Shown piece by piece: positions 15,810-64,000 of a stretch of DNA of 64,000 nt. The position numbers were made by a program, and so were the translations under genes. The stretch lies in the NCBI RefSeq assembly GCF_016808335.1, contig NC_053153.1:30449590-30513589 (forward strand). Reading direction: 5' to 3'. The notes below the pieces were generated by a model. It saw nothing but the letters and a program-made list of their open reading frames with translations, made no database searches and had not been told where the DNA came from. Each line of letters starts with the position of its first letter. Position 1 is the stretch's first letter. The stretch comes from Panicum virgatum (taxonomy: Eukaryota > Streptophyta > Magnoliopsida > Poales > Poaceae).

Positions 15810-15879
15810 CAAGTATTGTTCTGCCCTTTGATGAGTTTGATGACTTGAGATCTTCTCAAGGGTTAGTATGGATTGTCCT

Positions 15880-16299
15880 ACTTAAGGACTAGAGTAATTT
15901 TCAAAGTTGACCGTTTAGAATTAACCTCGTCAGGTTACCCAAGTGAGAATAACTTTGAAAATATCCAAAAACCTACTCGATCCAGCGAGTAGGGTGTCTT
16001 CTTTGAAGATTGAAGTAACCTTTAAAGTTGACCATTTAGGATTAACCTCGTCAGGTTACCCAAGTGGGACTTACTTTAAAGATATCCAAAAACCTACTCG
16101 ATCTAGTGAGTAGGGTGTCCTACTTGAGGACTGGAGTAGCTTCTAAAATCGACCATTTAGGATTAACACCGTCAGGTTACCCAAGTGGGACTCATTTTGG
16201 AAATATCCAAAATCTACTTGAGCCAGCGAGTAGGGTGTCCTACTTGAGGACTGGAGTAACTTCTAAAATTGACGTTTAGGATTAACCCCGTCAGGTTAC
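15880..16299. repeat. tandem array B, 120-121 bp unit (continues at 27037)
   Basis: Units start at GACC(A/G)TTTAGGATTAAC near 15909, 16030, 16151 and 16271, each carrying GTCAGGTTACCCAAGTGGGA and CTACTCGA..GAGTAGGGTGTC. The fourth unit is cut at GTTAC by the inner Gypsy insertion and resumes at 27037, with a further unit start near 27132. Confidence 0.9.
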
Positions 16300-17500: not shown

Positions 17501-17522
17501 CATTTTGGCACGCCCGGTGGGA
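17501..17522 (+). other. primer-binding-site-like sequence
   Basis: CATTTTGGCACGCCCGGTGG lies immediately after the 5' LTR, the position of the minus-strand primer site, and its style is typical of grass Gypsy elements. The matching tRNA was not determined. Confidence 0.55.
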
Positions 17523-17552
17523 CCTTCATCAACAACAACGTCCACCGCCGGG

Positions 17553-19602: not shown

Positions 19603-20673
19603 TTGCCTACTATCGATGATTGCCTGGAGTGCAGGCCTCGGGGACGCCAGTCAGGCGAGACGTCGGTGTTCCGGCGCTTGGGGCCCAAAGCGCGTCACGA
19701 CGACTATGTTGAGCGGCCATCCAGGGATGATCTTGAGCTCGAAGGAGAGGATAAGTATCATCGTCCACGATGGTGTCCTGACGGACTCAGTCGCTCGCAG
19801 AAGCGCAGAGTGCAGCGCTTACGCAATCTCGAAGAGGCAGAAGCAAGGTACCTCGACGTATTGAGGAAGGCGCGCCCAAATCTTGCGGGGCAAGTCAGGC
19901 GCCCGCAAAGAGTGGAAAGGCACCCTCCAAGGAGGGAGTGGCATCCCAAGCATTTAAAAGCCGATGAGAAACCGTCGGCTGATGTGAATATGGTATTTGT
20001 GCTCCCGTCGGAATTTTGTGCGCCTCATCCGGAGGAGCTGGCCGTCGCGCAGCTGGATCTTGGCCCACAGCCGATCATCTTTGAGAAGCCCAAGGAGAAA
20101 AGCTACAAGCACCTGAAGGGGTTATATCTCAAGGGTCTCATCGACGGCAAGCCTGTGAACAGAATGTTGGTCGATACCGGCGCCGCAGTCAATTTGATGC
20201 CGTATTCAGTGTTGCGCTGATTGGGTCGTTCTGCTGCTGACCTTGTCAAGACCAACGTAATGCTCAATGATTTCAACGGGCAGCCGTCGGAGGCAAAGGG
20301 CGTCCTCAATGTGGAGTTTGGTTCAATGGGATTGGATTCACGCCAATTGTTGTGTTCCTTCCACAAGACCGTCCCAACCTCGTTCTTCATCGTCAACAGT
20401 AAGAGTACGTACACAGTGCTGCTTGGGAGGGATTGGATTCACGCCAATTGTTGTGTTCCTTCCACAATGCACCAGTGTTTGGTTCAATGGGATGGCGACG
20501 AAGTGGAGGTGGTCCGTGCAGATGACTCCAGCGAGGTTTCGCTCACAGACATGAACGCCTGGGACGCGGAAGGACAAGAGCCGATCTCAGGGATTGCGCT
20601 GGAAGACTGTGATCGGATCGAAGCGACAAAAAACGGATTGAGGCTGGTCTTATCCACTGGCCTCACAGAATAA
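19603..20673 (+). pseudogene. aspartic protease region of the inner Gypsy element
   Basis: Encodes a basic linker (about 19603-19960) and a retropepsin-type domain with the catalytic motif LVDTGAAVNLMPYS (about 20167-20210). A TGA at 20218-20220 then splits the domain; the second half (VLLGRDWIHANCC) follows to the stop at 20673. A mosaic duplication at 20317-20366 replaces part of the domain core. The protease would process Gag-Pol; this copy is interrupted. Confidence 0.8.
20317..20493 (+). repeat. mosaic internal duplication in the protease gene
   Basis: GATTGGATTCACGCCAATTG plus the next 17 bases occurs at 20330-20366 and again at 20431-20467. The 16-17 bases preceding the first copy (GTTTGGTTCAATGGGAT) recur at about 20477, on the other side of the second copy. 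The insert therefore joins two pieces in an order different from their source. Confidence 0.85.
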
Positions 20674-20904
20674 ACACATCCTGGCATGCTACAGAGTTTA
20701 GCAGGTTTAGAGAGGCCGGTCCCAGCGACCGTCCCCAAAAAGTAGATAATTCTTATTTGGAGTTGAAACTGTTACATAATGAACAAACAATAGCTTGCTC
20801 TGGCAGTTGGTTAGTTATTGAGTATTCAGTTTCGAAAGGTAATACAGAAACGGACAGCCCGTGCGGTCGGCCGAAATTTTTCTTTTGTTATCTCTCCGTG
20901 TTTG
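20674..20904 (+). other. linker between protease and RT
   Basis: Open frames are short and carry no recognised domain. It falls where Tat elements have a variable linker. Confidence 0.4.
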
Positions 20905-22430
20905 CTGTCGACGTGGCAGATGACTACGAGTTGCCTGCGTTCACAATTGATTTTACAGGCAACGGTAAGTTGGGGTACGGGTTTACATCAACTGACAATT
21001 TGGAGGAAGTTGATATCGGTCCCGAGGATAAGCCGTGACCAACATTTATTAGCAAAAGGTTAGACCCGAGCCTGCGTGAGCCGATGATAGCACTATTGAG
21101 AGAATACCGTGACTGTTTCGCGTGGGATTATGCTGAAATGCCCGGTCTGGATAGAAGCATCATCGAACATTGGCTCCCGCTTAAGAAAGGATTTCGGCCG
21201 TTTCAACAACGACCACGACAGATGAAGGCTGAAATCCTAGAGGAGGTTAAGAAAGAGGTGCAAAAGATGTTGGATGTAGGGTTCATCAGGCCATGTCGGT
21301 ATGCAGAATGGATCTCCAGCATGGTCCCTGTACAAAAGAAGGATGGCCGATGGCGAGTCTGCGTGGATTTGAGAGACCTCAACAGAGCAACGCCAAAGGA
21401 CGAGTATCCGATGCCCGTCGCGGAAACATTGATCAACGCAGCTGCCGGTCACAAAATGCTAATCTTTATGGATGGTAATGCCGGCTACAACCAGATCTTC
21501 ATGGCCCCAGAGGATATAAGAAAGACCGCGTTCAGAGTACCAGGCACGGTCGGCTTGTTCGAGTACATGGTTATGACCTTTGGATTGAAAAATGACGGTG
21601 CAACATATCAACGCACCATGAATTACATTTTTCATGATCTCATCGGCAAACTGGTAGAAATCTACATTGATGATGTCGTGGTCAAGTCCGCATCGGCTGG
21701 GGGACATCTGGAAGATTTGCGTCAAGTCTAGGAGCGGACTCGAAGGTTTGGGCTCAGAATGAACTCGAAGAAATGCGCCTTTGGTGTATCGGCCGGTCAG
21801 TTCTTAGGATCCCTGGTACATGAGCGAGGAATCGAGATCGGTTTAAAGAGTCAAGAAGCTGTAAGGACAATGAGGCCGCCTACTACGAAGGAGTTGCAGA
21901 AGCTCATCGGCAAAATCAACTTTGTCAGACGATTTATCTCCAATCTATCTGGGCGTATCGAGCCGTTCATGGGTCTGGTAAAGATCAAGTTTGAGGATGA
22001 GTTTCACTGGGGGGCAGAACAGCAGCAGGCTTTCGACGAAATCAAGGGATACTTGTCGAAGCCTCCAGTGTTGGTTACTCCTCAGCAAGACAGGCCTTTC
22101 TTCGTGTACCTGTCTGTGGGAGACACTTCCATTGCCTCGGTGCTGGTTCAGAAACATGACGATCAGGAGAGGGTTGTTTTCTACCTCAGCAGACGCATGT
22201 TGGACGCTGAGACCAGGTATCCTGAGATTGAGAAGCTTTGCCTTTGTTTGTTCTTTACATGCACAAAGCTTCGTCATATTTTGCTCTCGGCGGAAACGAT
22301 CGTTATCTGCAAGTCGGATGTCATAAGGCATATGTTGTCGTCTCCTTTTCTAAAAGGCCGACTCGGAAAATGGATGTTTGCGTTGTCGGAGTTTGATATC
22401 CGATATCAACCTGCAAAGGCAGTCAATTGA
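20905..22430 (+). pseudogene. reverse transcriptase and RNase H of the inner Gypsy element
   Basis: RT copies element RNA to DNA. Motifs in order are KKGFRPFQQRPRQM (about 21185), VPVQKKDGRWRVCVDLRDLN (about 21327), LIFMDGNAGYNQIFM, FRVPGTVGLFEYMVMTFGLK and the catalytic YIDDVVVKS (about 21661). The Ty3-type RNase H follows (about 21960-22430: QQQAFDEIKGYLSKPPVL, FFVYLSVGDTSIASVLVQ). Interruptions are a TGA at about 21036, a TAG at 21729 and a TGA at about 22428. Catalytic aspartates are present, so inactivity comes from the stops rather than active-site loss. Confidence 0.9.
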
Positions 22431-22910
22431 CAGGCACTGGCGGATCTCATTGCAGACAGGGTCAACACTAACGTGGCCACACTTTTTATACGTGCTTGGG
22501 CCATGTTTTTCGACGGATCGGCCTGTGATGATGGGTTCGGCGTGGGAATTCTTTTGGTATCGCCTCGAGGGACGACTTATTCCTTTTCCATCAGGGTGAC
22601 TACTCCATGCACCAATAATTTAGTAGAGTATGAGGCCGTTCGCAAGGGGATGGAATTACTCCTGGAAGCTGGCGTAAAAGCGGTGGAAATATTTGGCGAT
22701 TCGAAACTGGTGATTTCTCAGCTCACGGAAGAATATAGATGTGAGAGCGAGGCTCTTTTTCCGATATGGATGCAGTGCCGCGAGTTGATGTCACAATTCA
22801 GGTACATTAATTTCCACTGGATACGCAGGACTTTGAACAATGAAGCCAATGACTTGGCACAGATGGCTTCCGGATACAAGAAAACAGCCGATGGGGTCGA
22901 TGTAGAGGTT
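22431..22910 (+). CDS. second, archaeal-type RNase H domain (Tat lineage), within pseudogenised pol
   Basis: After the Ty3-type RNase H, the frame opening at 22473 holds AMFFDGSACDDGFGVGIL, NLVEYEAVRKGMELLLEAG, VEIFGDSKLVISQL and NNEANDLAQMASG. These four blocks hold the Asp, Glu, Asp and Asp positions of an RNase H1 active site. A second RNase H here is the hallmark of Tat-type elements. It is part of Pol, not a free gene, and the frame continues into integrase. Confidence 0.8.
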
Positions 22911-24156
22911 TATTTTCTAGAACCTGGAGATTGGAGAGCCGATATCTTCAATTATTGGAAGGATTCGGCTCGGGGGGCACCCAGAAGGATAAGACTCAAA
23001 GCTATGAAGTATGTTCTAATAGGGGACGATATGTTCTACAGGACTTTGGAAGGACTGCTGCTTAATTGTCTGGGGCCTTCAGAGTTGAATCGGCTTTTGC
23101 ATGAGGTTCATGAGGGAGCCTGCGGTACTCATCAATCGACCCATAAGATGAAGTGGCTGATTAGGCGATCGGGATATTACTGGCATACCATGCTTGAGGA
23201 CTGCTTTAAATATTACAAGGGATGTCATGCATGTCAGAGATTCAGCAAGATTCATATGGTGCCGGCATCAGTAATGAATCATATCATTAAGCCATGGCCG
23301 TTCAGGGGTTGGGCCATGGATATGATTGGCCAGATCAACCCGCCATCCAGCAAAGGTCGGTGGGTGTTGGCTGTCACGGATTATTTCATGAAATGGGTGG
23401 AGGCGGTACCCATGAGGTCGGTGGCATCAAAAGATGTGATCAATTTTGTTAAAGAGCACATCATTCATAGGTTCGGGATTCCCCAGACCATTACGACCGA
23501 TGGAGGATCGGTCTTTATATCGGAGGAATTTAGGAAGTTCGCCGATGACATGGGGTTCAAGCTGATCAGATCATCCCCATATTATGCCCAAGAGCCTTAT
23601 CAAGCTGATCAAAAGGAAGATCGATGAATATCCTAGGCGCTGGCATGAGGTGTTGTCAGAGGCTTTATGGGCATATCGTATTTCGTGTCACGGATCCATC
23701 AAGACGTCACCATACCATCTGGTCTACGGTCAAGACGCTGTGTTGCCATGGGAGATCACGGCCGGATCGAGGCGTGTTGAGTTCCAGAATGATCTGTCGG
23801 CTGAGGAGTATGCAGCCTTGATGAGCGACAATGTGGAGGATCTCACAGAGCTAAGACTTTGGTCACTTGAGAAGATCAAGGAAAACAATGCTAAAGTCGC
23901 TCGTGCATACAACAAAAAGGTCAAGCCAAAAAATTTCCAGGTTGGAGACCTGGTTTGGGAGGCAGTGCTACCATTGGGAACTAAAGATAGGAAGTATGGT
24001 AAATGGTCTCCAACTTGGCATGGGCCGTACAAGGTTGATCAGGTCCTGCCTGGAAATGCGTACATGCTTGAAGAATTAGACGGTGTCAAGTTTCTTGTAG
24101 CCGTCAATGGCCAACACCTCAAGAAATATTTCCCGAGCATGTGCGAAGGCGAATAA
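22911..24156 (+). pseudogene. integrase of the inner Gypsy element, with active-site deletion
   Basis: Integrase inserts the cDNA. The HHCC zinc domain is visible (about 23090-23245: LHEVHEGACGTHQSTHKMKW with GCHACQRF). The core has its first Asp in GWAMDMIGQI (about 23310) and its second in ITTDGGSVF (about 23495). At about 23590 a small deletion shifts the frame directly after SSPYYAQ, removing the block that normally carries the catalytic Glu. The C-terminal part resumes in another frame (23584-24156, SLIKLIKRKIDEYPRRWHEV to a stop at 24154). Confidence 0.85.
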
Positions 24157-24195
24157 CAAGAGCCGATGAAATCCATCTGGCTGTATTATAAAAAG

Positions 24196-24387
<192 letters not shown>

Positions 24388-24486
24388 AGCAAGGCAGCCG
24401 ATGTGTAACCATCGACTTAAGATGTTGTTAATAGGTACGAGTTTTAGATTTAACAGGCAACATTAAATGTTCTCTGAATTGTTCTA

Positions 24487-25729
24487 CTAGTTCAGGAACT
24501 CTTCTATGGCATGGATGGCTTCTGCGCGTATGGCGTCGGCTTTTGCTATGATCGCTTCGTCGTCCTTGTCATCGCCTGTTACCATCTGTTGACTCAAGGT
24601 GCTTATCTCTGCGAACTCTGCCCGTATCTGCTTGGTCATTTCTTGGGCTTCTTGCTTGGAGTTTGCAATCGAGGCTTTCTCCAGTTGGATCAGTCTCTGG
24701 GTGGTGCGGACCTTTTCTTCGAGTTCCACCAGTTCTTTCTCCAGGAGATTGAGTCACCTTGTACTCGCAGAGATATCGGCTTTGGCGTCCAAAGTTTCTT
24801 TCTTCTGTTGAGCATCTTGCACTTTTGAGCGATGTCGGCTTTCAGAGGAATTTGAGAATGACATAATTCTATTCTCTGTTGTGCTGCTTTCACCTCTGCC
24901 CGAAAGAAGGGAAGATGGCCGGCTAGCCAGAGCTTGACCTGAAGTGACTCTGGGAGTTGGGATTCTATCTGCTCGAGGATTTTCTTTATTTCGCTGGAAT
25001 CATCAACCAGGGTACTGATTGGAGCAGATAGCAGATTTTTGATGTGTTGAAGCTGATCCGCGAGGTCAATCGGCTGCCGTGATGATGGTACTTTCGCTCC
25101 AGGGGCGATCAGACCCATTGATGCTGGGTCAAAGGAGAGCAAATCTGAAATATTGAAGCCCTGTGGAGATATTGGAGTTAGTTTTGGGAACAAGGTGCAT
25201 CAATGGAGTTATCGGCTGATTTAGAATCGGCTCATGTAGTGTTACCTGTTCTGAGTAAGAAGCAATGGTCGATCTGGGTGCGATCAGCTCAGTTGAGTTT
25301 GAGGCAACAACAGGGGCATCGGCTATGTCAGCCTGTTCGTCACGCACCTCCATCGGAGCATCGGGAGTTCCGGGTTGAACTTCCATCGGTACATCAGCTG
25401 TTGCAGTTCCTTCGCTGCGAATTTCTGCTGGGACGATGGTTGATTCTTGTTGTTCTTGGACTTTAGTTGTTCCAGTGTCGGCTTCATGAACGGTGGTTCC
25501 CTGTTGTGCTGGGCTTCTAGTACTGAGGATGTCTCCAGCTGCGTCCTGGAAATAGGATTACAGTCAACCAGAATATATATGCGTAAGAAAGAAGTTTCGG
25601 AGAGGTGAATTACCTGGTTGGTGTTGGATTCTGATAGATTCGGGGTGAGATTAAGTAATAAAAAATGGAAGATGGATCGGCATTTTCACATTTGCGAGGA
25701 GCCGGCTGCAGAGACGTTGCGTCTTCCAT
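24487..25729 (-). pseudogene. antisense spliced ORF of the inner Gypsy element (unknown function)
   Basis: On the minus strand an ATG at 25729 opens MEDATSLQPAPRKCENADPS, ending at an AG/GTAATT donor near 25614. Next comes a segment rich in Glu, Pro and Thr (about 25548-25246), also ending at a GTAACA donor. The last part (about 25160-24487) is Gln/Lys/Glu-rich and helical, probably a coiled coil (QRLIQLEKASIANSKQEAQE), ending EAIHAIEEFLN. A stop or frame change near 24755 breaks it. Tat elements commonly carry antisense 3' ORFs; their function is unknown. It converges on pol across the TA repeat. No domain was recognised. Confidence 0.55.
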
Positions 25730-25803
25730 GGTGGTTGTAGTGCGTTTTAATGAGCATCAATGGGAAGATGAAGCAACGAAATGGTTTTGTAATTATCATT
25801 GCC

Positions 25804-25819
25804 AAAACCAGGGGGCATG
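25804..25819 (+). other. polypurine tract region before the 3' LTR
   Basis: AAAACCAGGGGGCATG immediately precedes TGTTATCACC of the 3' LTR. Its position and purine richness fit the plus-strand primer site. Confidence 0.65.
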
Positions 25820-27036
25820 TGTTATCACCATAAATTAACAGGGTTAATTAATGGGCCGCGAGCAAGTTGGGCTTAAAGCAGGAATTAAAGAAGGCTTGTG
25901 AATCGGCTCCTGCGTGAGTGTTTGGGCCATGTGGGCCATGTATCTTTAGATTTAGTTCAGTTTGGGTTAGAGATAGAGTCCGATTTGGACACGTTGGTTT
26001 AGATTGTTTTCCAAGTCTCCGGACTATAAATATGTACCCTATGATATTCGTAAAAAGATGAACGTCATCACGTCTCGCAGCCACAATTCTCGGCGCAGCG
26101 CCACCCCTAATCCTAGGGTTTCATCCAAGTAAGCCCCATGCTGCCCTGATAACTTCTTGCGATCAGGGCAGCATTGTTCTTGCTTTTACCTTGGTATTAC
26201 TCGTACTGAAGCGTTTTGATGGCGAGTAGTGCTAGTTATCCTGATGTTCGTAGCATGACCTTTAGTAGATTTATCATGCTCTTGTTATTTATCATATACG
26301 AATATCATGTTATCTATGCGTGATCATGTATTAATCTTACGCTAATTCTCATTGCATAGAGTTATTCGCGTAGAGATAACACCCTGCTTCTTTTCTATCT
26401 AGTAGATCTAAGCTATTATGGATTGTTCTTATACTTAAAAATCGGCTTAATATCTGCTAGGTTAGGCCTTGCAAACGGGTTGGACGATCCGGCGATGTAT
26501 TAGATGCTTTGCCTTGATCTTAATAGGGATTGATCCGGGAATTGGCTTTCGCTTATTCTTAGGTCTCTATTCTAGTTAAGGTTTGGTTATCTATTACGCT
26601 CGTTAGGCCTAACTACGTGTAGGATGTTCCGATCTAGCAGTGAAGCTTTTACCGTCGTGGATTGGATTAGCTAGATCTAATTGAAGCAGTTTTTGCAGTT
26701 AATTGCTTTATCTATTAATATCTAGATATGCAGATCTGATCTGACATCGGGACTCGATCGGCTCTTTAAAGCCAATGCAAGAGTCGTCCCGGGGAGCCGA
26801 CCACGGCTCAGACTAATGTTTACATGTGTTTGTGCATGCAGGCAAATCGTCGAAAGCACGTTCGCACCTTCCTGATCGGGTATAGGTCAGGTGGCACGCC
26901 CTGCATCTCTGGAAGCGGCGGCGTGTGCCAGGATCTGGGCCGTTGACCGAGGGACCGGTGCCAGCCAGCGCCCCAGCTGCCTCCCGGCTCTACGTGTTGC
27001 CTGTCGCTACTCGTCGGTGGGTTTTGACCGACAACC
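25820..27036 (+). repeat. 3' LTR of the inner Tat-type Gypsy element
   Basis: Aligns with 16300-17500 over its whole length. The TATA-like CTATAAATATG is at about 26024. The end reads CGACAACC where the 5' LTR ends CGACAACA, so the terminal CA has become CC. GTTAC (27037-27041) follows as the target duplication. Confidence 0.9.
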
Positions 27037-49697: not shown

Positions 49698-52600
49698 CTA
49701 ATTGGAGTGTACAACCAACCTCTTTGCAACCAACCTTATCCCAGCATTTTGCTGGTAGTCATATACTTCCAAAGAAAAGAAGGCGTCCACCTTGCTCCCT
49801 CGGACAAACAGAGAATCCAGTTCTGTGGCATCTACATTGCTAAAAACAAGCGTCTGAATGTTACCACTGGGCTCTTTCTGGCATATATCTGTTGAGTAGA
49901 TTGCAGAGTCGCCACTGACAATAGTAGGGATGCTGCAGGGTAAGGGCACTGTTAGAACTCTGAAAATCATAAAGCGCTTCCAGAATACAAAATGAAAGGG
50001 GGAACAAAACTCACTTTAGGCGGACAGTTGGACGATTGACATATCCATACTTCTTAACCAGGGGTCTCCATTCAGAGGTGCTGCCGGATTTCTGAGATGA
50101 CTTCCGAGCAAGATCATCACAAAACTCAAGAACCTTACTGAGATTCTCAGGGATGTCTACAACTATGTTTAACTTCGGTTGGCCTGCATTGTCTAGAAAC
50201 TTTGTACTAACCCCAAACTGGACTTTCAAGCCTGCAGAACACAGCAGTAGTGGGCTGTCTTTGTGCTGGATAGATGACCTCTGACCAAATTGGTGCAATG
50301 GAGCAACTGAGATTTTAATATACTCAGTTGAAATATCATCTGGCTCAAGAAACCCGGAATAGCCACTGGAACTTGCATCCATCTGTGTGGTGGTATCTAC
50401 CTTCATTTCCTCAATGTGGGATACCAACTCAACAGATTGCCTGCTTGTTGAAGGATCACCTGTTCCTTCATTACCTCCCTCAGGTAACACACCGTTAGCT
50501 GGACAAACTGTGCGCTGCCGTTTTGAAGAATTAGGTGAAGAGTTCGCTTCAGGTTTTGGTGCCTCGGGAGAAGCAGCCCCATTAGCTCGGCTCCTTGTTA
50601 TTGCATGCTCAACAAGGTTCTCAACAGTAAGCACCTCTGGAAGACTTGCCTCCTGTCAGAATAACTTTGGAATTTAGCCAACAGATTATCTCCAATAGTG
50701 ATTAAAACAATTAGCTATAAATATCCCACAACATGATGATTCGCTTTCTTTTCACAGAGTAATTTCTACAGTAACTGAAGTAGTTAAAAAGAATGAGAGT
50801 CGTAGCATCAATTACATAGAACTAGTTCGATTGTAAATTATTGGCAAAAAACGGCGGCAACTGCAATAAATTGAACAGAGTGCATATATAACAAAAAAAT
50901 GAGAAAAGAACGACAAATTTCCGTATGAAATTATTGACACATAGGGCCTATTTCCCAATAGCAAAACTTGACTTGCCCATTGAGCCATTGAGGTACTGAG
51001 CTATTCCGGATGGCTACATGGGAAACCAGTGGCGGGGGGGGGGGGGGGGGTACCAGAAATGCTTCAGGCAAAGAAACACATATTAATGTGATTGGAACAG
51101 CCTAGCTGATGAAATTAACCAGGTATGGGAAAATAAATGAATGCAAACATACCAGGAACAACACTGTAGCACAGTACTTGAGAACTTCAAGGTTCATTCT
51201 AACATCATCAAGACTCCTGCAGAAAAATTGCAAATAAAATGAGTGAGAGGCCATTCACTCCAGTTTTGTGTAGGCCAAGATAAAATTAAAGCACAAGGGA
51301 CATTTCAACTTCTAGGTCGTAACTAATATCCTATCCTACCAACAGTCAGTGGACTGTGGTTGCAGATGAATGCATAAAGGGAAACTGGATATTATTGATT
51401 AATACTTTTAATGGCAGTTCTTCATGCCAGGCAGACAGTTGTTCTGGTGACATGAACATGTAGTGAAGAGCTACAGTTATGCATTGCACCGCATAATTAT
51501 GACATCTATTCAGCATGACCTATCTAAAGGAAAGAACCATCATAAGCCATGCCATCTTTTGGGATATTAGTTAGCTAGTCCAGATGAGCCAACCCCAAAG
51601 ATGGGATGGAAGATCCTGGGATGGTGGCTTTTGACATTTCGAGAAGAGATGGTGCTACTTAGTTAGGAATGTGAAGAGATAAAAGGACACCATTGCCCAA
51701 CCAAATTCCTCATATGGCTAGGGCAACCTAGATGGGCACAACTGAGCTGGGTAACAAAATACCAGCTAAAAGGATTCCAAGCCAAGTTACATAAACTGAA
51801 GTGATGCAAAGGGTGACAGGTGCATATGAAAACCCTAGATGTTGAAAGAGGAAGCAATCGGAATACAAATGCAATGCTATCACTTGAGTTAGTTGCAATG
51901 ATATTTACCTGTGCCTTTGCTTCCCTAGGCCAAAGTAATTTGCCAAGCTTGCCATCTGCAGGTGAAATGGATAAGTACAGAACATGAGATACCCCTTTTA
52001 CTGACAGAAGGAATTGAAAATTCCCAATAGAGGTCATGTATATCCACTTCAATGTAACCTCACCTATCATTATTACACTATCTCCTAAAAACACACTTTT
52101 TAAAATTACAAGCAGACTCTAGTCAGCACATAGTTCCTTTACCTTCATGTCTCCTGCCCTCCTCCCAAACCGCTGGGTAAGCAGAGGTAAGGTGTCGATC
52201 AGCCCCTTTGGCTCAGGAGGTGGCCGGCCAATCTCTGCAAACACCTCCCTTATTCTTGCGGAATCAAACCTCACAATGTTGTGCCCTGCCCAGACCCGCC
52301 CTGTCAAACGTTCAGAAGAGTCGTTTCAGTAATTGGGCCATTTCATGGAAAGTTCAGGTCCACACATCTCAGCTTACACTCTTTCGATGCCTTTTCAGAC
52401 TAATGAAGCCCCTAGTACGACTAATAATTGATATGACCTCAATAAGGAATCAGAGATAGCAGGCTGCTAGACCATACTATAGTTTGATTGACTCCTACTT
52501 TACGCATACCATGAGTCCATGACAATGCACACCTAGCTTGTACACGACAACAATTGTAGAGAGATCGACTGCAAGCATGAGGTAGAGTAAGGGAAATCCC

Positions 52601-52960
52601 TAATTCTAACTCACCGTTGAGGAGGTCGTAGACTGCGTCGGCGACGTCGCGGAAGGGCGGGGCCCCGGAGACGGCGTCCCGCGTGATGCCGTTGCAGCGC
52701 ACGGAGGCCGCGGAGACGGCGGACGCCGGGTCGGCGGGGCGGACGAGCGTGGCGTAGGAGGCGACCTCGACGAGCCTGCGCGGGCAGACGAGGATGGCCC
52801 CGAACTCGAGCAGCGCGTACCCCTGGCCGGCGCGCTGCGGGACCGAGGTCTCGACGTCGAAGAAGGCGATCTCGGGGCCCCCGGCGCCCGGGGGCGCGGC
52901 CCCCTCCGGCGCCGCGGGCGCGGGGGAGCCGGAAGCGGGGGAGTCGGAGGCCGTCGTCAT
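49698..52960 (-). CDS. NEN-type DEDDh exonuclease-domain protein (intact, 6 exons, 495 aa)
   Basis: Exons, minus strand: 52960-52615, 52300-52143, 51955-51909, 51216-51153, 50652-50015, 49932-49698. All borders are GT/AG and phases join to one 495-codon frame. The start ATG at 52960 is in a GC-rich exon. The exonuclease domain (residues about 30-205) has Asp35 and Glu37 (FFDVETSVP), Asp128 (GHNIVRFDS), His183 and Asp188 (QRHRSLDD), the full DEDDh set. A Ser/Pro-rich linker with KRQR at 249-252 (possible nuclear signal) and a conserved C-terminal domain follow. The layout matches NEN1-4 (NAC45/86-dependent exonuclease-domain proteins), which act in nuclear degradation of differentiating sieve elements. 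Whether this paralogue does so is inferred. No large TE was recognised in its introns; intron 4 has a G run (about 51034-51050). Confidence 0.85.
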
Positions 52961-53011
52961 GGCGTCGCGGGCAGCAGAGCAGGCGGGCGGATGAGGAGGC
53001 GTGCGGTGGGG

Positions 53012-53024
53012 CGAGGCGGCGGAT
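53012..53024 (-). promoter_or_regulatory. TATA-box candidate of the NEN-like gene
   Basis: On the minus strand CATCTATATATCCGCC lies about 55 bases upstream of the ATG at 52960, in otherwise GC-rich DNA. It would imply a very short 5' leader of about 25-30 bases. The start site is not shown by sequence alone. Confidence 0.4.
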
Positions 53025-53354
53025 ATATAGATGGATAGGGCGGAGGAGGGGGGAGGGCTGGTTGGGGCTTGCGTGGGGGGGTTGAGGAGGGGAGGGAGGG
53101 AGGAGGCGTGAAGGGAGCGGCGGCGAGGAGGAGGGAGGAGCCGGCGTGGTGGCGTGGGGACGGGGGTTTTCGGGTTGGGCGAGCTGGTGGGATTGGAATA
53201 GGAGCTTGTTTCCACCCGGGGGTGAATTGAATTGCTCTTGCTTCGCTTCCAGGTTAAGGAATGCACACGGTGTCTCTAGCCTGCCCTCCCCCTCCGTGTC
53301 CGAGATGGGGAATGTAAGGAAGGGAACGTCCCACCATTGTTATCTTGTTACTTG

Positions 53355-53481: not shown

Positions 53482-54817
53482 TATCTCATTCCTCGTAAGA
53501 TCAAAACTCAGTTCCTCTCAAAAAAAAATCCCAATTCTCTCCCTAAGTGAAAGTGTATTATACTGGTCGAAGCGTAATCAAATCGTGTAATTGTGCTTTT
53601 AATTTTTTTTGCAGTTGTGATTTTTACTGCTTTTTATCATAAAATCAAACATAGTCGAATTGTTTTGCCTGGATAAACTATTTGTCCCCTCTCCATTTAC
53701 GTTGTTCTCTTCGTGGAATCAATCTGCTTGCTTCCTTGGTGAGATAAAATGGTCCGTTAAGCTAATCAATTGCTGCTGCATCACGCGACCGTCGAGAGCG
53801 GATGTGAGTTCAATTCGGATGTGAATTCTATCTGGGTATATACGGGCATCATGCCGTTTGCGTCCATCAGGCTGATTGGTCTTTTCAGATGGAGCGCGTT
53901 ATCGCGCGACCTGTCACGTGCTTTGGGACCGCGCGACCCCCGCGTCCGCCCCTTTCCACCAGCGCGCAACCCCCAGACATTTCCTTTCCCTTTTTGATCC
54001 CGCCGCCGCAATCCCAGGCCCACGCGCCGGAAAGAAGGGAGGCGCCCGCAGCAGCCGCGGCGCGCCGCATCCCCCATCGTCCCATCCACCGCGCCTCGCC
54101 GCATCTCGCATCCATCCATCCAGCCCCCATGCCGCATCTCGTCGACACGCACGGGAGGGCAGCCGCGGCGGCAGCAGGACCCTCGCGACTTGCGTCCTCC
54201 CTCCCCGATCTGCAACTCCTTCCTTGTGTTTGCAACTCTTTTTCGTGCTCGTTCCTTCTCATCTACTCGATCTAATCCCCCTAAATCTGTGCAAATCTTC
54301 CCTATGATCTTCGAATTGTAGATAATTTTTCATGTCCATCAATATATTAGTGCAAATTTGTTGCAATTCACACAAGTTGCTAGCAGTTTTGGATGGTGAC
54401 TCTTGACTAATGATCAGTAAATAAACTATTAGGACTTAATTTCGTCTAATAGATCAACAGGATGGGTGCCCCCTTGCAAGACTCTTCTGAACATATATGT
54501 TTATGGATTGTAGTCCTGAGATGGCAACTTGTGTTCATTTTTTTTGTGGCAACTTGTGTTTCCTCAGACTGCAGCTTATCTACATTTTGAGTTTTTTTTA
54601 TGGCAATTTGTGTTCATTTTTTTGTGGCTATAAAAGGAAACTTGTATTGTGCTAATTAGTTTTGTTTTATAGGTTCATTAATATAACAAATTGTGTGCCT
54701 TCCTATATACATTATGAGTTTCCTTACATGACAACTTATACTTAATATTTGTGTTTTTGTAGGTGTAATATGACTTGTAGTGGGGTTTTTATCTAAATTC
54801 TGCACCACTACAAGAGC
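53482..54817. other. spacer with GC-rich block upstream of the FAR1-type transposase
   Basis: 53880-54250 is GC-rich with compositional open frames on both strands, possibly a 5' exon or promoter of the transposase gene. 54320-54780 is AT-rich and contains the first copies of the AAGTTGC/GCAACTT word (54374, 54533, 54549). No terminal inverted repeat could be defined. Confidence 0.4.
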
Positions 54818-57814
54818 ATGATTTCCTTGCAGCCCCTTCGGATCTTGAGTTGCAGCAAGATTCTGGTGCAGCTTTTCCCACCGATGTGTGTTGCAGGTGG
54901 TGCAGTTGCACATGTGTCCAGCAGCAACTTGACTCTTCCTGTAATATCCAATGAAGCTCTTCATCTGCCAAGCAACTCAGCTCCTCCTGAACTGGCAACT
55001 CAGCAACTTAGCAACTCAGCATCAAAGGTACTCCCGGCTGAATCTGGTGGTGTGACAGTTTCCACGGCTGAGACAACAGCAGATGCAGTTGATGTTGAGG
55101 ATGGTGTTGAGGTTTTAACCACTCCGCAGGAATCTTTTGTAGGCATGTCTTTCAATACTTCTGATGCTGTCAAAGACTATTACAATTCCTATGCTCGTCA
55201 TACAAGTTTCTCTATAAGGATCAACACATCCCGTGAGTCGAAGAAGGCCAATGAAAAGACAAAGTATATCTATGTTTGCCAGAAGGCTGGGGTCAACAAA
55301 AAAGAGAAGGTTGCTCATGATGGGCCAATATCTGAGAAAAAGATTGTGAGGCAAAGGCGCAGGGATTATGTAGATAGGACGCACTGCCTAGCTCACATGA
55401 TTATGAGGAAGACATCCCCTGGACACTAGGAGGTTGAGAACTTTGAAAGAGAGCACAACCATGAGCGTTTAAGAAAATTTTCGCTCACAAAATACTTGAA
55501 GTCCCACAGAGACATACCAGCTGAAGAGAAAGAGTTCATCAAGTTGCTCCATGGATGCTGCATCACGACAACTCGTGCTTATCAGATAATGGCTGAGTTG
55601 TATGGAGGTATTGAAAACTGTCCATACACAGAAGGTGATGCTAAAAATTTGCGTGTTGAGTACCGTGCTGAATATAGAGGTAAAGATTTGAAGGCGACAC
55701 TTGAGTACTTTGAGGAATTAAAGAAGGAAGATCCGGAATTCTATTATAGTTACACTCTTGATGAGTTTGATAGGGTTGAGAATCTATTTTGGGTGGATGG
55801 TGCAGCAAGGAGATCTTATGAGCTGTATAGTGATTGTTTATCCTTTGACACTACTTATTTGACCAATGCCTACAACATGACATGTGCTCCTTTCATAGGT
55901 ACGCATGTCCAGAAAAAAATGCTAGTTTTGCCCATTGATGGTTTTCATTGATTGTTATTTTTTGGATTCCAGAAAAAATACTGGTTGTCACACAAGTTGC
56001 TACTTTGAGAAAGCACAAGTTGACACACTAGTTGCACATAAGTTGCCATCTTTATTCTGCACCCGTTGATAGTCTTCAGCTATGAAAAAAATACTAATGA
56101 TTTGTATTGTGTTAACAGGGATTGACAGGAATAGCATAACAATCCAGCTGGGTTGCGGCTTTCTGAGGAATGAGAAGACTGAGTATTTTGTCTGGCTGTT
56201 TACTGAATTCAAGAAAGCAATGTGCAGCAAGGATCCTGCAAATATAATAACTGATCAAGATATTGCGATGAAGGCTGCTATCGCAGAGGTATTTGTCAGT
56301 TTAGTTCATAGGAATTGCCGTTGGCACATTATGGAAAATGCTAGGAAGACCATGGGTGCTTTCTTGGATAGCAAGGGGGATGGTAAGCAAGAGTTGACGG
56401 ATGACTTCAAGAATTGTATTGACAATAGCTTCACGCTGGCACAGTTTGAGCAGAAGTGGCAGGCATTTTTGGATAAATATGAGCTCAACAATGATGAGAG
56501 GTTCTAACATTTGTATGACATGAGACATTGTTGGATCCCTGCGTATTTCATGCATTGTTTCTTCCCCTTCCTCCAAACAACAGCACGGAGTGAAGGCTTC
56601 AATGCTGTCCTGAAGCGCTATGTCAACCCAAAGAACTCGATACTCAACTTTGTGCAGCAATATAAGAAAATACAACAAAGGATTTTCAGCAAGCAAGATT
56701 TGCAAGAGGCGGCCACAACCACGAAGGTCCCACGCTACTTGACGGGGCACCCTATGGAGCATCAGATGAAGAAAGCGTATACAAGGAGGTTGTTCAATGT
56801 GTTTCGACACGAGCTGCAGCTAAGTTCGAGCTACTATGTTGTTCGTGTTGAAGGGAATGACTTGATAGATGTTGTTCCGTACAAGCATTGCCCCGATCTG
56901 TTGTATGGGACACGAACATTCAGGGTCACGTCGTCCAGGGTGGAGGGCTTTTTATAGCTGCACTTGTTGCAAATTTGAGAGAGATGGAGTGCTTTGCTGC
57001 CATATATTGAAGGTTTTTTACGCCCTTGCAGTCCGCAAGGTGCCTGATCGGTACATTCTCCCTCGATGGTCAGTTGAGCCAGTGGTTGATAGTGGGATGG
57101 AAGTTGCCGCTAACGAGCATCTTCAAGAAGCCCAGATTACAGACCACGGGAAACATGTTATATGTTACAGCAGCATGTGCACAAACTTTAATAAAATTGT
57201 GAGACCTTTTATGGCTGATGACGAGGGGTATGTCATAGTCTCAAAATAAGTGAGTGCCCTGCAATCTAAGCTTGTTGCTTTGAGAAAAAGGAGAGCGTCA
57301 AGTGTTCTTCCGGAGGTGGAGTGTGAACAAGTTGATATTGAACAACCTGCTGCGCCAAGGCCGCAGAAGAAATCGCGCAAAAAAACAAGCTCATCAACCG
57401 GAGGGGGTGGGGATCCAAATCTGTCACAACAGCCTAATGGTCCGTATTGTCTTAACTGAACGTAGCAACTTGTACTTCCTTGCCCCTAGCAACTTCTACT
57501 CATTCAGCCTAGCAACTTGTACTCCTTGTTCTAGCAACTTGTGTGTATTACTCCTAGCAACTTGAAATTGTTTTGACTTTTCATGCTCGCATGTTGCTGG
57601 TGCTGAGATTGGGGACCCACCAATAACAAAGAAGCAAGGGCGTCCAAGGTCAAAGAGATACAAGACAGGGATGGGGTTGCTTCTCCAAAAAAAACCACCG
57701 TGTGGCTATTGTGGTTCAACAGAACATACCACATCAACTTGCCCCGCCAAGCCGGCAAGGAAGCAAACAAAAGAACTCTCGAATAAATCACTAAATGAGG
57801 TTGCTGCTGCGTGA
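54818..57814 (+). pseudogene. FAR1-related / Mutator-like (MULE) transposase pseudogene
   Basis: The start is uncertain (first ATG 54818). Domains in order: FAR1 DNA-binding (about 55130-55480: AVKDYYNSYARHTSFSIRIN, EREHNHERL); MULE catalytic domain with LSFDTTYLTNAYN (first Asp, about 55840), INIITDQD-type second Asp (about 56250) and TTARSEGFNAVLKRY (Glu, about 56580); SWIM finger YSCTCCKFERDGVLCCHILK (about 56956); CCHC knuckle CGYCGSTEHTTSTC (about 57697). An intron at 55899-56118 splices cleanly; another is likely at about 57440-57610. Stops at 55427 (a conserved Trp position), 56504 and 57247, and a frameshift near 56950, inactivate it. It is more likely a MULE than a domesticated FAR1/FHY3 gene, because of decay and context. 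Confidence 0.85.
57462..57568 (+). repeat. five-copy cluster of (C)TAGCAACTTG
   Basis: TAGCAACTTGTACTTCCTTG, TAGCAACTTCTACTCATTC, TAGCAACTTGTACTCCTTG, TAGCAACTTGTGTGTATTA and TAGCAACTTGAAATTG follow each other with 22-24 base spacing, in the probable second intron of the MULE transposase. Confidence 0.95.
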
Positions 57815-58623
57815 AAAAACAAGATGTGTTGCAGGGGGTGCATCTAACATTTTTTCCACTTTCTTGTAATTTATTAAACTGTAATTAGTGATTTATGAAA
57901 CTGCAATTAGTGAATTGATTTTTATTAAAGCATGGTGTGTGGTGATGTAATAATAAATAGTTGATGCTTTTGTATATTTCAAACTTGCTATATATATGGA
58001 TAAATATACTTTTAATAAAGCTTTGTGTATGGTGGTGTATGAAAAAAGATTGGAAAATTGCAGCTTGCATGTTGAATTAAGTTAACAGAAACACAAAGTG
58101 CAGATCCGATGTACATAAGTTGATATTTCAAAAAAGAAGATCTATGCACAATTTGCTGTTTCGACTTCAGACAAGTTGCCTGTTGGGCTGGTCACAAGTT
58201 GCCAGTGTAAATACCTCCATATATTACATAAGTTGCTGATCACACAGGATACCTCCATATATTACATAAGTTGCTTCTCACACAGGAAAGTGGGGGGTAA
58301 AAAAACGATCAGCATATCTGAGCATTGTTTAAAACCGCAGAGAACATCTATATACAGAGTGCATGCATCATGAAAAAAATCACAAGTTGCTGTTGGACTG
58401 GCCACAAATTGCATATAAGTTGTCTGTTGAACTGGTCGCAAATTGCCAGTATATTAAAATAAAATGGGAGCATCTATATACAGAGAATATGTATCATATG
58501 AAAAATACACACATCTCTCCTCCCCTTCCCCACTCCGTTCCTAGTCTACTGATTTGCCATCTTTCCATTTCCCTTTGCTTTTGAGAATAGTTCAGTCTTG
58601 TTCTCTAGCTTGTTGGTAGGGCT
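57815..58623. other. convergent 3' spacer between MULE transposase and Ulp1-like gene
   Basis: Holds paired segments ATTAAAGCATGGTGTGTGGTG (about 57926) and AATAAAGCTTTGTGTATGGTG (about 58014) with polyadenylation-like AATAAA. Tandem copies of ACCTCCATATATTACATAAG followed by TTGCT lie at about 58213 and 58251. Several AAGTTGC words are present. Confidence 0.6.
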
Positions 58624-61600
58624 TTAAAGCCACTCAAGAAGAACTCGCTTTCTCAGCTTCATTTCATCAAACTCCATCATATTTGGGAGGCTGTGTCCAT
58701 CCCAATGCTCTATGGCCTTGAGGGTGAACAGACCGCAGTCATGACTGAGTTTGAGGGCATAAAAAAAAGAGAGACAAATGTTAGATAATGTAGAAATTAC
58801 AAAATGTTACAATATCTACAGTTTTGAATTCAGTTTAGGATAAAAAAAAGAATGACTTGTGCTCACATCCCGAATTGCTTGTACCCCTCAATGAACTGCG
58901 TCTCGAAGTTGTAAATGGTAGGAATCTTGCACCCCTCAACTTTAGATGTGTACTTGTTCCATAGGGTGATCACTTTTGCACGCACCTGATTTGCTTTCCA
59001 TCTCAATTCAGCATTGTCGCTGTTCCTCAGAGAGTCTATGATTTGAAAATTCTTATCTGGCATATTTACAGCAAATGTGATCCAGTGGCCATCGCCGCCC
59101 GGCTGCGCTGTATTCTCTTGGTGCACGGGAAAGAGTATCTGTATAAAATCAGTTGAATAACTCACATGACAACAGAGATAAGTTGCTGCTAAGGGAATGA
59201 ATAAGTTGCTGGAAAAGAAAATCAAGTTGCTGATAAAAAATAGAAAAAATGCTACTGAACTGCGCAAACATGCTAATCCAATTCAATTTCTATTCTGCAT
59301 TCGGTTAAAAACAGATTGGGAAAAAAAATGGCGCTGTGAATGGGAAGTGATATGCAATGTTCAGCAATTGAAGCAGTATGCTGTGGGTCTCTGACCTCGA
59401 CAAATATCTAACTTTGAATATTGCTATCAGAAAGCTACCTAACTCTAAATGTTGCAAATCACAAACTACTCATTACTTTTAATATTTGCAATCAGAAAAC
59501 AAAGGCATTGGGAAACTACTCCTTAGTAATATTGCAATCACCAATGGGTTCTGTGGGATGAAATTTGCTAGAATCATACAACACAAGTTTGCAACTAGGT
59601 TACTAGGCAGACATCACAAAATTTTTAAGAAAAAGAAAAATGTGGTTTTACCATTTCATAGTTTGACTCGCGAAACTCAAAAGCGTTCTTGACAATGTTG
59701 CTGTTCATGGGTCCTGTCATCATTTGAATCTGTAGCAAAAAAAGTATATGGCAAAAAATGCTCAGATATGCACATGGGGGACATACTTTCAAAACGATAA
59801 GATACACAAAGATGTCAGAGGGGTCAAAGGGGGAAAAATGATATTACCGACACTCATGGGGACATTATCTTTGTCCTCTTCTTTCTAGGGTCCTGTGACA
59901 GCATGTAAGTCCCGAGATGCAAGGCGTTGGTGCCTAGCGATCTCCCCATAACCATGCCTGCTGCTACCTCATGTGCTGTAAGTGTTATCTCTTTGGATTC
60001 AAAGAATATTGTGCTGCCAACAAGAAAAGGTTTTATCCACAAATTTCTCCATGACTGATGGGCGGAAAAAAAGATGGGGGGGGGGATAAGATCAAGGTAT
60101 ATTGTCATACCCATCTTCGTGCCTAGTGTGTCTGCATATGATGCTGTACAGTTCATCTTCTGTTGCAAGTTGATCCTTGTCCATCCCTTGAGAATCCTCA
60201 TCATCTGTAAATCCCAGCGAGAAGCTTGGAGCATCGGGTGCATCCTTGAAACATTTGATGTCCTTCAAGTTGTCGACACGCTGCTATCAGAACACACACA
60301 TGTGCAAAAAAAATTAACACTTGCATGCTGTACAATGGAATGAAAAAAAATGAGAAGAAAGGAAAACATGAGTTGCTATTACCTTTTCTACTACTGCTTT
60401 ATGCATAGCTTCCGTGCGCCCATCACCAAGTGTAAATAAAGAGAAAAAACGGATTAGCACAAGTTGCTGGTTTGCAGAAAAAAATGTGATGGGGGCACAT
60501 TTGCATGCATGAGTTGCTACCTCATCTTGTTTTGGGATGGTATCTGATTTTTTCTGGAAACTTCCTCGCATACACTTTGATCGCTGCTGCACCAGGAAGC
60601 GGCTCTGCCTTTCCCTCATCTTGCTCCTTTGCAGTATTAAATTTGGGCACCACCGGTGGCAAGCCTCTCCCTCTTGTGCTAGCAAGTTTTTTCCTTGACA
60701 GTACATCTGACCGCTCCGCCTTTCTCTTTGTTCTCTTGGGTTTGGGCACTTCTTCCGGAAGATTGTCCACAGGCAGGGGTTGCAACAAATCTTCCAGAAG
60801 CTTGTCCTCAAACTTTTTTGCTTGCTCTTTCGGTTCAGAATTCATCTCATCGGACATTGTGACCGTGTCCTTTGCCCCTTTAAATTCCTTTTCGACAATA
60901 TCATTGAAGACTTCCTTCTCATTAGGCACGAGCGGCACATCGAGGAACTTAGGTGGTTCAAAGATCAAAGGCTTACTATCGGGCGGTGTAGCCATTAAGT
61001 CCAATAGTGTCATGCCTCCCAGAAGCCCGTACCGATTTACTGGTGTAATCGGTGACAATCCGCTAAACTCAGAGCTGGATTATGTGCCCGATTGCGTACT
61101 GCGTGGTGTGCCTTGATAATTGTCACCAGCCTCGTCTTTAGGTGATGGTGCTTCATCAAAATCTATCAAAAAAAAGATGATGTGGTCAAATGTAAGTTGC
61201 TACTGATCGAAACATAAGTTGCTGCTAAGCAAAATCATAAGTTGCTACTGATCGAAACATAAGTTGCTGCTAAGCAAAATCATAAGTTGCTAAATAACTC
61301 AATCCAAGTTGCTGGTTCAACCAAAAATACTGATACAAAAATTGCTGCTGGACTGATAAAAAAAGTATGTTTACCTTGTTTTCCATCATCTCTGATGCTG
61401 CCATCATCTTTTGATGCTTTGTCGTCATCCTTTGATGCTTTATCGTCGTCCTTTACACCTTTATCATCATCCTTGAATGGTGCACCTTTAGATTTATCAC
61501 CAGACTGGTCTTCGAGCGATGATGGTTCAGCAGATACTTTAAAAAAACATAAAACATAAGTTGCTGCTATCTCCAAAAAGAGAATATGCTACTAAACCAA

Positions 61601-63838
61601 TACAAGTTGTTGGAGGCCTTCAATACAAGTTGCATACCTGATTGTTTGCTGGCTGGTTCGGCTTTGTTGGTCTTCTTTGCGTTATCTACATCTTCAAATC
61701 TAAACTTCTTCTTTCTTTGCACTATCAAAGAAAAAGAAATGTTTCTGATAGAAAAACAAACTAAAAGAAGCATATGCGATGCTGCTAGTCATTACCTTCG
61801 TTCTCAGTAGCTCTTGGGTCAATTTGTGATGAATTGATATCATCTCCAAATCCATCGTTGTTCTCATCATCTTCGTCCCTCTCTGTGTCGCAAGAGTCAA
61901 AATTGGCATAATCTTCATCGCTGCTGGAGTCTTCTTCATCACTCCTAATCTCACCGAGTGATTCTTCCAGAATGTCGTTCTTCTTTTTACTCCTAACCTT
62001 CCGGGTACCTTTAGAGGTACTGGGGCCTGCTTGACCTCCTTCTGCATGGGCTTCTTGCTGTTGTACCCCCTAGCACAACTTTTGTGTTAGCTTGACAAAA
62101 GCTTGATTGATTGCAATGCTGAACTCGCTCAGTGCACTTTTGAGGACCTCCCGATTCTGTAAAAAAGAAAAAAATTGCAGAAACATAAGGCAACAACGAA
62201 AAACATAAGATGGTTGGATTATATGAGAGAAATGAGGGAGAAAAATGATGCGTGATGATAGAAAAAAAAGGATGGAGGGCAGAAACATACAACAATGACA
62301 GATTCCTGCATGTTTGAATCGATGAATTGTTGGATCCTTTCTGGTGCGATCATCGTTGTGCTTAAATGTTCTGGCTTTAGCTGTACAAAAAAAGGAGAAA
62401 AGGTGTGCATGAGTGAATAAAAAAGGATTACTGGTTTACAAAGGCAGCATATAACTTTGCATGTATAACTCTGTGACTCTGTACATGTGTATCCAACACA
62501 TGTATAACTTGCTACTTACACATACAAGATATTTACAAGTTGCTAATTCCCACACATGCAGAAAAGTTGGAGGAAAAAAGGTATCCGTGCATGAATCTTA
62601 CTTGTAGTTTGCCGAACTGAGTCTCGGAGAGCTTATCCATGAGTCAGACTTTGGAGACGAGTTGTTCCATCCATGCAGCGGCTCTTACTTTCAAGTCGTT
62701 GTTGACGATATCACCAACATCAAGTCAATCTAGATACAATATCTGCGTGCACAAAAAGAGCATATTGAACACAAAAAAAGGATAGTCAGGTCTTGAGAAA
62801 AAAGAAAAAGGGAGACCAAAAAATGGAAAAGACAAGGTGCTACAAGTCTAGTATCCATACGGTAAGGAAGAAGAGGCACCCGGACACAAACTTTCGCTTC
62901 TCAGACTTAAACTTTGCAATTTCTTTAATGAGTCTGTCCACTACTAGTTTGCACCAATTGTATCCTTTAATCTCTTTGGTGATGGAAATGGAATGGAAAG
63001 CCCTCACACACAACTTTGGGCTTGATGTTGGGCACAAGAAGGTGCTAATTGCAAACATTAGCCAAACCTTCAACCATTTGTCATCTATTGAATTCTTTCC
63101 CTCACCAGACAACTATTTTTCAACTTCTACAAATGATGGTGCCTTATGATCATTCTCATGGCTGAAAACTTGATAGAACTCAGTGAATGTATCAGAATAA
63201 CTCTTCTTCTCATAAACGACAGAGTTTGAGCCCATTGGTAACCCGAGCACTCGTTTAACAGCTTCATCGTCCACCTTTATTGTCCCCCTGTATGGGATCA
63301 CCAACTCGGACTTGTTGATGTCAAAATTGTTAACTAGCCAAGTTGACAACTTCTCAGGAACAATGTTGCACTTGATTTCAAGGAGTCCCTCAAACCCAAC
63401 ACTTGCAATTTGCTGTTTCTGATTACCCTTGAGATTTTCATTGATCTTGCTCAGTCTTTTCGCTGATCCTTTTTTCCTTATATCCTAAAAGAAGAAATGA
63501 AGCATTTAATGAGTTTGCACACAATTCATGAATTCAAATTGCTTAAAAAAAGGATTCATACAAGCTACCACATAATTCATGTATAAGCTGCTAGAGCGGA
63601 CATACTACAAGTTAGCCATAAAAAAAGAATTCATGCAGCATAGTTTTTCTGCTCCGAATGGTACTTGTTTTGCGTGCTTTCTTCCTTCAACAACTTCTGT
63701 CATTTCATCATTCACTACACTGCCTCTAGAAGTACTCTTGTCTGCTCTAGAAGTAGCCCTAGTTGTTCTCTTTGGAGACGGGGCTGTATTAGTAGCTTCA
63801 ATATTGCGTTTCTGGACCATGCTATAAAAAAAGTGCAT
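58624..63838 (-). pseudogene. Ulp1-type (C48) SUMO-protease-like pseudogene of a TE
   Basis: The minus-strand multi-exon remnant starts near MVQKRNIEATNTAPSPKRTT (63820). The N-terminal domain (63480-62840: WLVNNFDINKSELVIPYRGT, EAVKRVLGLPMGSN, YNWCKLVVDRLIKEIAKFKS) is the mobile-domain-like module common in grass TE Ulp1 genes. Acidic/basic low-complexity linkers follow (61380-62155, including KASKDDDKASKDD), then SPITPVNRYGLLGGMTLLDL (61055). The protease core has GHWITFAVNM (His, about 59085), FQIIDSLRN (Asp) and DCGLFTLKAIEHWDG (Cys, about 58740), ending at a stop at 58624. The catalytic triad is intact, but in-frame stops occur near 63113, 62730, 62645, 62070 and 61080. Ulp1 proteases process SUMO; TE-borne copies have unknown roles. 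Confidence 0.7.
61192..61281. repeat. 45-bp tandem duplication in an intron of the Ulp1-like gene
   Basis: TAAGTTGCTACTGATCGAAA followed by CATAAGTTGCTGCTAAGCAAAATCA is repeated twice without change except at the first base pair(s), then a partial third copy begins at 61282. Each unit contains two AAGTTGC words. Confidence 0.9.
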
Positions 63839-64000
63839 AAAGAAGATGTGTCAGACAAAATAATAACCCCATGATAAACAGAATAAGTTTCTACGAAAGG
63901 GATGAATAAGTTGCTGGAAAAGAAATCAAGTTGCTACGTGGGTTCAGAGAAAAAAAAACAGAGTTCAGTGGGTCCTAGTGTCAAGAAATCATCCTCTGAA
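63839..64000. other. window end, upstream of the Ulp1-like remnant
   Basis: Contains AATAAGTTGCTGGAAAAGAA at about 63904, a near copy of 59199-59219 (AATAAGTTGCTGGAAAAGAAA), followed in both places by ATCAAGTTGCT. No gene start or terminal inverted repeat was recognised before the window ends. Confidence 0.5.

Follow-up and report, generated by a model that had tools for sequence, protein, structure and literature searches.

In a 64,000-nucleotide stretch of the Panicum virgatum genome (the window; assembly GCF_016808335.1, contig NC_053153.1, positions 30,449,590 to 30,513,589 of the forward strand), the seven-base word AAGTTGC, or its complement GCAACTT, recurs through a decayed Mutator-like element (MULE), mostly in non-coding DNA and in short arrays of uniform orientation. 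The element carries a predicted transposase gene on the plus strand and, facing it, a gene of the Ulp1/C48 type. We propose, with a probability of about one half, that the word is recognised by a protein which the transposon itself encodes, most likely the product of the Ulp1/C48 gene, and which would act against silencing in the manner of the Arabidopsis VANC proteins. The layout resembles the landing sites by which some Arabidopsis transposons undo their own silencing, a function that is putative here.

The word is concentrated in non-coding DNA of the element

By exact count, AAGTTGC/GCAACTT occurs 34 times in 54360–64000 (the plus strand reads AAGTTGC 25 times and GCAACTT nine times), close to the roughly 33 copies estimated by eye in an initial annotation of the window; a run of A aside, it is the commonest 7-mer of this region. 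Positions 1–54000 contain seven copies, which rules out a word that is simply common throughout the window. The earlier figure of roughly one copy by chance was slightly low, since first-order Markov simulations gave 2.6 copies (100 runs, maximum 6) and dinucleotide shuffles (1000 runs) gave 1.04 copies in the non-coding part of the region (maximum 7) and 1.06 in the coding part (maximum 6). Expectations under higher-order models, whose simulations already contain parts of AAGTTGC, were 3.3 (second order, maximum 7), 7.7 (third order, maximum 16) and 15.8 (fourth order, maximum 29; 100 runs each). Together, the Markov and shuffle controls rule out chance or base composition as the source of the excess.

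Using approximate gene models, drawn by eye from reading frames and splice-like sites, 30 of the 34 copies fall within 3935 non-coding bases (7.62 per kb), an excess over the shuffled non-coding control that agrees with the initial annotation. The other four (54924, 55003, 55541 and 57101; about three had been reported) lie within 5706 coding-looking bases (0.70 per kb), itself a slight excess that 1.9% of the shuffles reach; 54924 and 55003 are scored as coding by the model, and the low-complexity stretch in which they lie may be untranslated. Exact copies are present in 10 of the 18 non-coding segments and absent from eight. Forms with one mismatch are also in excess, with 14 observed against 5.1 expected (300 runs, maximum 12), or against 4.1 when the control was built without the exact copies (300 runs, maximum 10). 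A literature search limited to the exact spellings AAGTTGC and GCAACTT returned matches that, judged by title and the start of the abstract, look unrelated.

Arrays grew in part by tandem duplication and block copying

The copies form 10 clusters, inside each of which orientation is uniform. Fourteen of the 17 distances between neighbouring same-strand copies at most 60 bp apart are 20–25 bp, the others being 34, 38 and 46 bp. GCAACTT reads in the sense of its own or the adjacent gene in eight of the 10 clusters (two-sided p = 0.11); the largely uniform orientation relative to transcription that had been described is thus retained as a tendency, and the copy at 54374 joins those of the intron at 55899–56118, already singled out as an exception, in being antisense. 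A copy first placed at 54533 lies at 54524. The fuller form of the word is about AYAAGTTGCY, with A at −2 in 25 of the 34 copies, C at −1 in 19 and T directly after the word in 27; the corresponding counts with one copy per cluster are 12/17, 11/17 and 13/17. By-eye counting places a pyrimidine at −1 in 32 of the 34 copies and after the word in 33.

Flank identity among 14 adjacent pairs was 0.41 upstream and 0.51 downstream, in comparison to 0.35 and 0.32 among distant pairs and 0.27 among random non-coding pieces. Because adjacent copies share their flanks more than distant ones, the clusters must have grown partly by tandem duplication. Self-comparison of the element identified eight matching pairs at an E value of 1e-3 or better, four of which link word blocks of different non-coding segments (59.2 with 63.9 kb; 59.2 with 61.2–61.4 kb, twice; 61.26–61.32 with 61.55–61.61 kb), and block copying therefore explains part of the spread. 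The blocks at 59156–59231 and 63862–63935, which lie 4.7 kb apart, align over 77 bp with 86% identity. There are three word sites, and at the first of them the 63.9 kb block departs from the word by one letter. Of the remaining matches, three lie inside one segment and one pairs 61.10–61.17 with 61.48–61.55 kb, mostly exon. At the same threshold, the clusters at 54.4–54.5, 55.99–56.05, 57.5, 60.46 and 62.54 kb gave no self-match to another segment.

The host element carries decayed transposase and Ulp1/C48 genes

By domain order, the plus-strand gene (Table 1) is classified as a decayed Jittery-type transposase: its domains follow the order listed for Jittery-type MULEs in the table of PMC6446971 (FAR1 N-terminal, MULE core, SWIM or CCHC C-terminal), and it is considered decayed because it contains in-frame stops and a frame change. 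The right end of the element seems to lie beyond the window. Adjoining the MULE, a minus-strand frame at 52439–53275 resembles an exonuclease gene by eye.

In the facing gene, one exon matches Peptidase_C48 at 20.5 bits, just below the cut-off of 20.7, and among five relatives scanned three score above the cut-off and two below; the H, D and DCG residues, as well as further in-frame stops, were read by eye. The N-terminal exon contains one in-frame stop that its relatives do not have, and its weak match to the Plant Mobile Domain (PMD) recurs in one relative (P0006; E 0.00098, also below cut-off). Fold prediction of the N-terminal domain was too poor for use (mean predicted local distance difference test score, pLDDT, of 37.6), and the 22 sequences of solved structures that matched it were judged spurious, since each was a designed Pizza protein aligned along roughly 30 residues.

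Among 55 protein relatives, three carry a species label, and all are from grasses: one from Setaria viridis (transposase) and two from Panicum virgatum (Ulp1 exons). Of the 16 relatives of the Ulp1 exon, three (P0041, P0042 and P0056) continue upstream across the neighbouring intron; the peptides of the three word copies in that intron are all kept in P0041 and P0042, and two of the three are kept in P0056. These relatives bear, at the peptide level, on a condition set in the initial annotation, under which absence of the word from related elements would have counted against it. In searches further afield, a pattern for the three-copy array matched 15 viral contigs, in each of which the word occurs 3 to 13 times, and the matched stretches mostly resemble regular short repeats; patterns for a relative of the N-terminal Ulp1 exon gave three matches in viral contigs, and patterns for a relative of the transposase gave six in viral contigs and 15 in genome contigs, none of them confirmed; and tblastn of the N-terminal Ulp1 exon against plasmids returned no match.

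Table 1 Coordinates of the word clusters, the genes of the MULE and the LTR (long terminal repeat) element in the window.
Feature	Position	Strand	Details
Three word copies, 5' of transposase frame	54374, 54524, 54549 (within 54374..54555)	+, -, -	
Two word copies before FAR1 domain	54924..55009	-	Low-complexity stretch
FAR1 DNA-binding domain, then in-frame stop	55175..55423	+	Pfam PF03101, E 1.8e-11
MULE transposase domain	55838..56339	+	Pfam PF10551, E 0.0021 (first piece, below cut-off) and 7.1e-19 (second piece); split by intron ~55899-56118
Two word copies, transposase intron	55994..56046	+	Antisense to gene (GCAACTT taken as sense)
SWIM zinc finger	56956..57027	+	Pfam PF04434, E 1.8e-6; frame differs from MULE domain (frame change in this copy)
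Five-copy word array	57465..57563	-	22-24 bp spacing; likely intron, about 57440-57607
Five word copies between the convergent genes	58173..58390	+	
Ulp1/C48 gene, facing transposase gene	58624..63820	-	Multi-exon, approximate model; broken by in-frame stops
Three-copy word array, Ulp1-gene intron	59180..59230	+	21-23 bp spacing
Single word copy, intron	60461..60467	+	
Six-copy word array	61194..61312	+	22-23 bp spacing; holds perfect 45-bp duplication
Two word copies, next intron after 61.2 kb array	61558..61633	+	
Single word copy, intron	62537..62543	+	
N-terminal exon of Ulp1 gene	62843..63484	-	Weak PMD match, E 0.0049, 16.5 bits (cut-off 34.9)
Two word copies, 5' of Ulp1 frame	63908..63934	+	In block 86% identical to 59156-59231
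LTR retrotransposon	16300-27035		LTRs 93.7% identical; gag, reverse transcriptase, RNase H-like and integrase by Pfam
Antisense reading frame between pol and 3' LTR	24690-25199		Weak DUF1409 match, E 0.0026, below cut-off

The layout resembles VANC target sites in VANDAL elements

Sequence-specific anti-silencing is documented for the VANDAL MULEs of Arabidopsis, in which an anti-silencing protein encoded by the transposon binds a short motif of its own element; the binder is the companion protein VANC and not the transposase, and the targets of VANC21 in VANDAL21 are non-coding, share one orientation, occur at high density and form tandem repeats (PMC5735166). A review (PMC13317346) extends this activity to Ulp1-carrying kin: VANC genes with an Ulp1 domain (KIU) recognise motifs in their own kin, with motif-specific hypomethylation, and the capture of Ulp1 is dated to the separation of monocots and eudicots.

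Within this window, the word is likewise enriched in its element (34 copies in 9.6 kb against seven in 54 kb), lies mainly in non-coding DNA and forms tandem repeats in arrays of one orientation; as in VANDAL21/VANC21 and VANDAL6/VANC6, the setting is a MULE with a companion gene and with tandem repeats in introns and upstream regions. Because this layout matches the published features of VANC21 targets, it supports a VANC-like reading. The layout of the dispersed word is VANC-like, but we do not file the element as a VANDAL, because two features of that group are missing. The exon pieces scanned, which leave several small exons outside, gave no Pfam match at E values up to 10 to DUF1985 or DUF287, the domains of VANC-family proteins, and the transposase has a FAR1 domain, whereas the table in PMC6446971 lists SWIM and CCHC for the VANDAL group and does not list FAR1. 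The word also differs from the VANC motifs. VANC6 targets carry AGTTGTCC and AGTTGTAC (PMC5735166), with which AAGTTGCT shares AGTTG; this is weak evidence, because a 5-mer in common with the two VANC6 motifs is present in 3.9% of random 8-mers, and in 8.2% when the VANC6 and VANC21 motifs are taken together.

Gene content likens the element to other MULEs. As in the Kaonashi elements (KI/KIU), a C48 domain lies in the gene opposite the transposase, but KI-MULEs are mudrA-type elements of Arabidopsis without terminal inverted repeats (non-TIR), in contrast to the FAR1-type transposase found here (PMC13317346, PMC2528002). Jittery-type MULEs of melon and grapevine contain ULP sequences and have the same gene pairing and, by domain order, the same transposase lineage, although the available part of PMC2528002 does not mention a dispersed word. 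The PMD is also transposon-borne: Ikeda et al. described PMDs captured by MULEs, which in Amborella and a number of grasses form fusions with transposases, and speculated on an anti-silencing role (PMC5418596), and the PMD of MULEs is often antisense (PMC6446971). In this element the PMD match does not reach the Pfam cut-off, and a target word goes unmentioned in the available parts of these two papers.

Proposed recognition by an element-encoded protein and its alternatives

We propose that the arrays let an element-encoded protein tell its own element from other DNA. In an intact copy, the introns, the spacer and the upstream parts would all be bound by this protein, which would counter host silencing such as DNA methylation, leaving both genes free for expression. 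The arrays would multiply by tandem duplication, with a period of 20–25 bp, and by the copying of blocks from one intron to another, and the word would be preserved by selection; binding, the identity of the binder, selection and the anti-silencing effect are all part of the proposal. If it is correct, sequence-specific anti-silencing would extend to another transposase lineage (FAR1-type) and to monocots, the Ulp1 and PMD genes of plant transposons would be linked to escape from silencing, and a defined motif would be available for study. Pairs of VANC proteins and motifs have been put forward as tools for setting epigenetic states at chosen loci (PMC5735166).

Several observations weigh against recognition by such a protein, including the missing DUF1985 and DUF287 matches. 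Both the transposase and the Ulp1 gene are broken in this copy, and neither exact VANC6 motif was found in 54–64 kb. P0041 and P0042 match the query at 96 and 97% identity, so the peptides of the word show persistence among close copies rather than selection. The four self-matches that join word blocks mean that the non-coding segments are not all independent. A second word, AGCCGAT, is dispersed in an LTR element unrelated to the MULE in the same window and is not limited there to non-coding DNA (see below). The main rival is neutral repeat growth. Here the word would be the core of minisatellite-like arrays of about 22–23 bp that originated within the element, spread by slippage and block copying to further introns and then decayed, with no protein reader, and the non-coding bias would merely reflect what introns tolerate. 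A perfect 45-bp duplication lies in the 61.2 kb array, downstream flanks are more alike in adjacent than in distant pairs (0.51 vs 0.32), and the four cross-segment self-matches all fall among 59.2, 61.2–61.4, 61.55–61.61 and 63.9 kb. However, the five cluster sites with no cross-segment match carry the same word, although short arrays could have diverged past detection, and the flanks of distant copies are barely above random (0.35 and 0.32 vs 0.27). Slippage, as suggested initially, explains the 20–25 bp arrays, and some blocks were copied between introns, so repeat growth is partly right as the route by which copies became numerous; alone, however, it leaves the clusters without matching flanks unaccounted for. 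As a full account, neutral growth is a serious contender that we nevertheless find doubtful.

The initial annotation had also suggested protein binding sites spread across the element, with the FAR1 domain as a candidate reader. The VANDAL precedent indicates that this was the right kind of explanation, but it makes FAR1 the less likely binder because the precedent uses a companion anti-silencing protein and not the transposase. FAR1 is a DNA-binding domain and is encoded in the same element, and sites spread over the element could serve to load the transposase or regulate transposition. The known FHY3/FAR1 binding site is CACGCGC, a different word, and transposase binding sites usually lie near element ends, whereas these copies run through introns. 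Binding by the transposase is thus unlikely.

A signal read in RNA, for example a motif AGCAACTT that serves splicing or is bound by an RNA-binding protein, would suit the mostly intronic copies and the eight sense-oriented clusters. This idea, also raised initially, is weakened by the modest orientation bias (p = 0.11), by the two antisense clusters, one of them within an intron, by the five copies between the convergent genes (perhaps a 3' untranslated part) and by the eight of 18 non-coding segments that have no exact copy, and we consider it very improbable. Least probable of all are sites for a host DNA-binding protein recruited as an enhancer or boundary, since, for all the general resemblance of dense one-orientation clusters to regulatory arrays, the rest of the window has no excess (seven copies in 54 kb) and the copies are strung out along introns across a span exceeding 9 kb and are not gathered at a promoter.

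A second dispersed word lies in an LTR retrotransposon

The word AGCCGAT/ATCGGCT occurs 32 times in the window, against 6.0 expected, and 30 of these copies lie in the LTR element of Table 1. Its gag-pol span contains 15 copies, against 0.85 expected (300 runs, maximum 4), in all three frames and both orientations. The MULE is thus not alone in carrying a dispersed word. The observation cuts both ways, as such words may serve transposons widely as a device or may have some other origin in them. On the first view, unrelated classes of plant transposon would carry private words read by proteins encoded on the opposite strand, as a general means of self-recognition and escape from silencing, and the window would contain two examples, the FAR1-type MULE with AAGTTGC and its antisense Ulp1 gene and the LTR element with AGCCGAT and its antisense frame after pol. 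We regard this generalisation as rather improbable. Elements of the Retand lineage are described as having antisense frames in the interval from pol to the 3' LTR, and most of these frames include a domain with a presumed capacity for DNA binding (PMC11963269).

The LTR element also contains a perfect AT dinucleotide run of 62 units (24260–24383). Two tandem arrays at 15468–16299, with units of 68 bp (4.8 copies) and 121 bp (3.5 copies), end directly before the 5' LTR, and a stretch after the 3' LTR, at about 27.04–27.18 kb, matches the 121-bp array.

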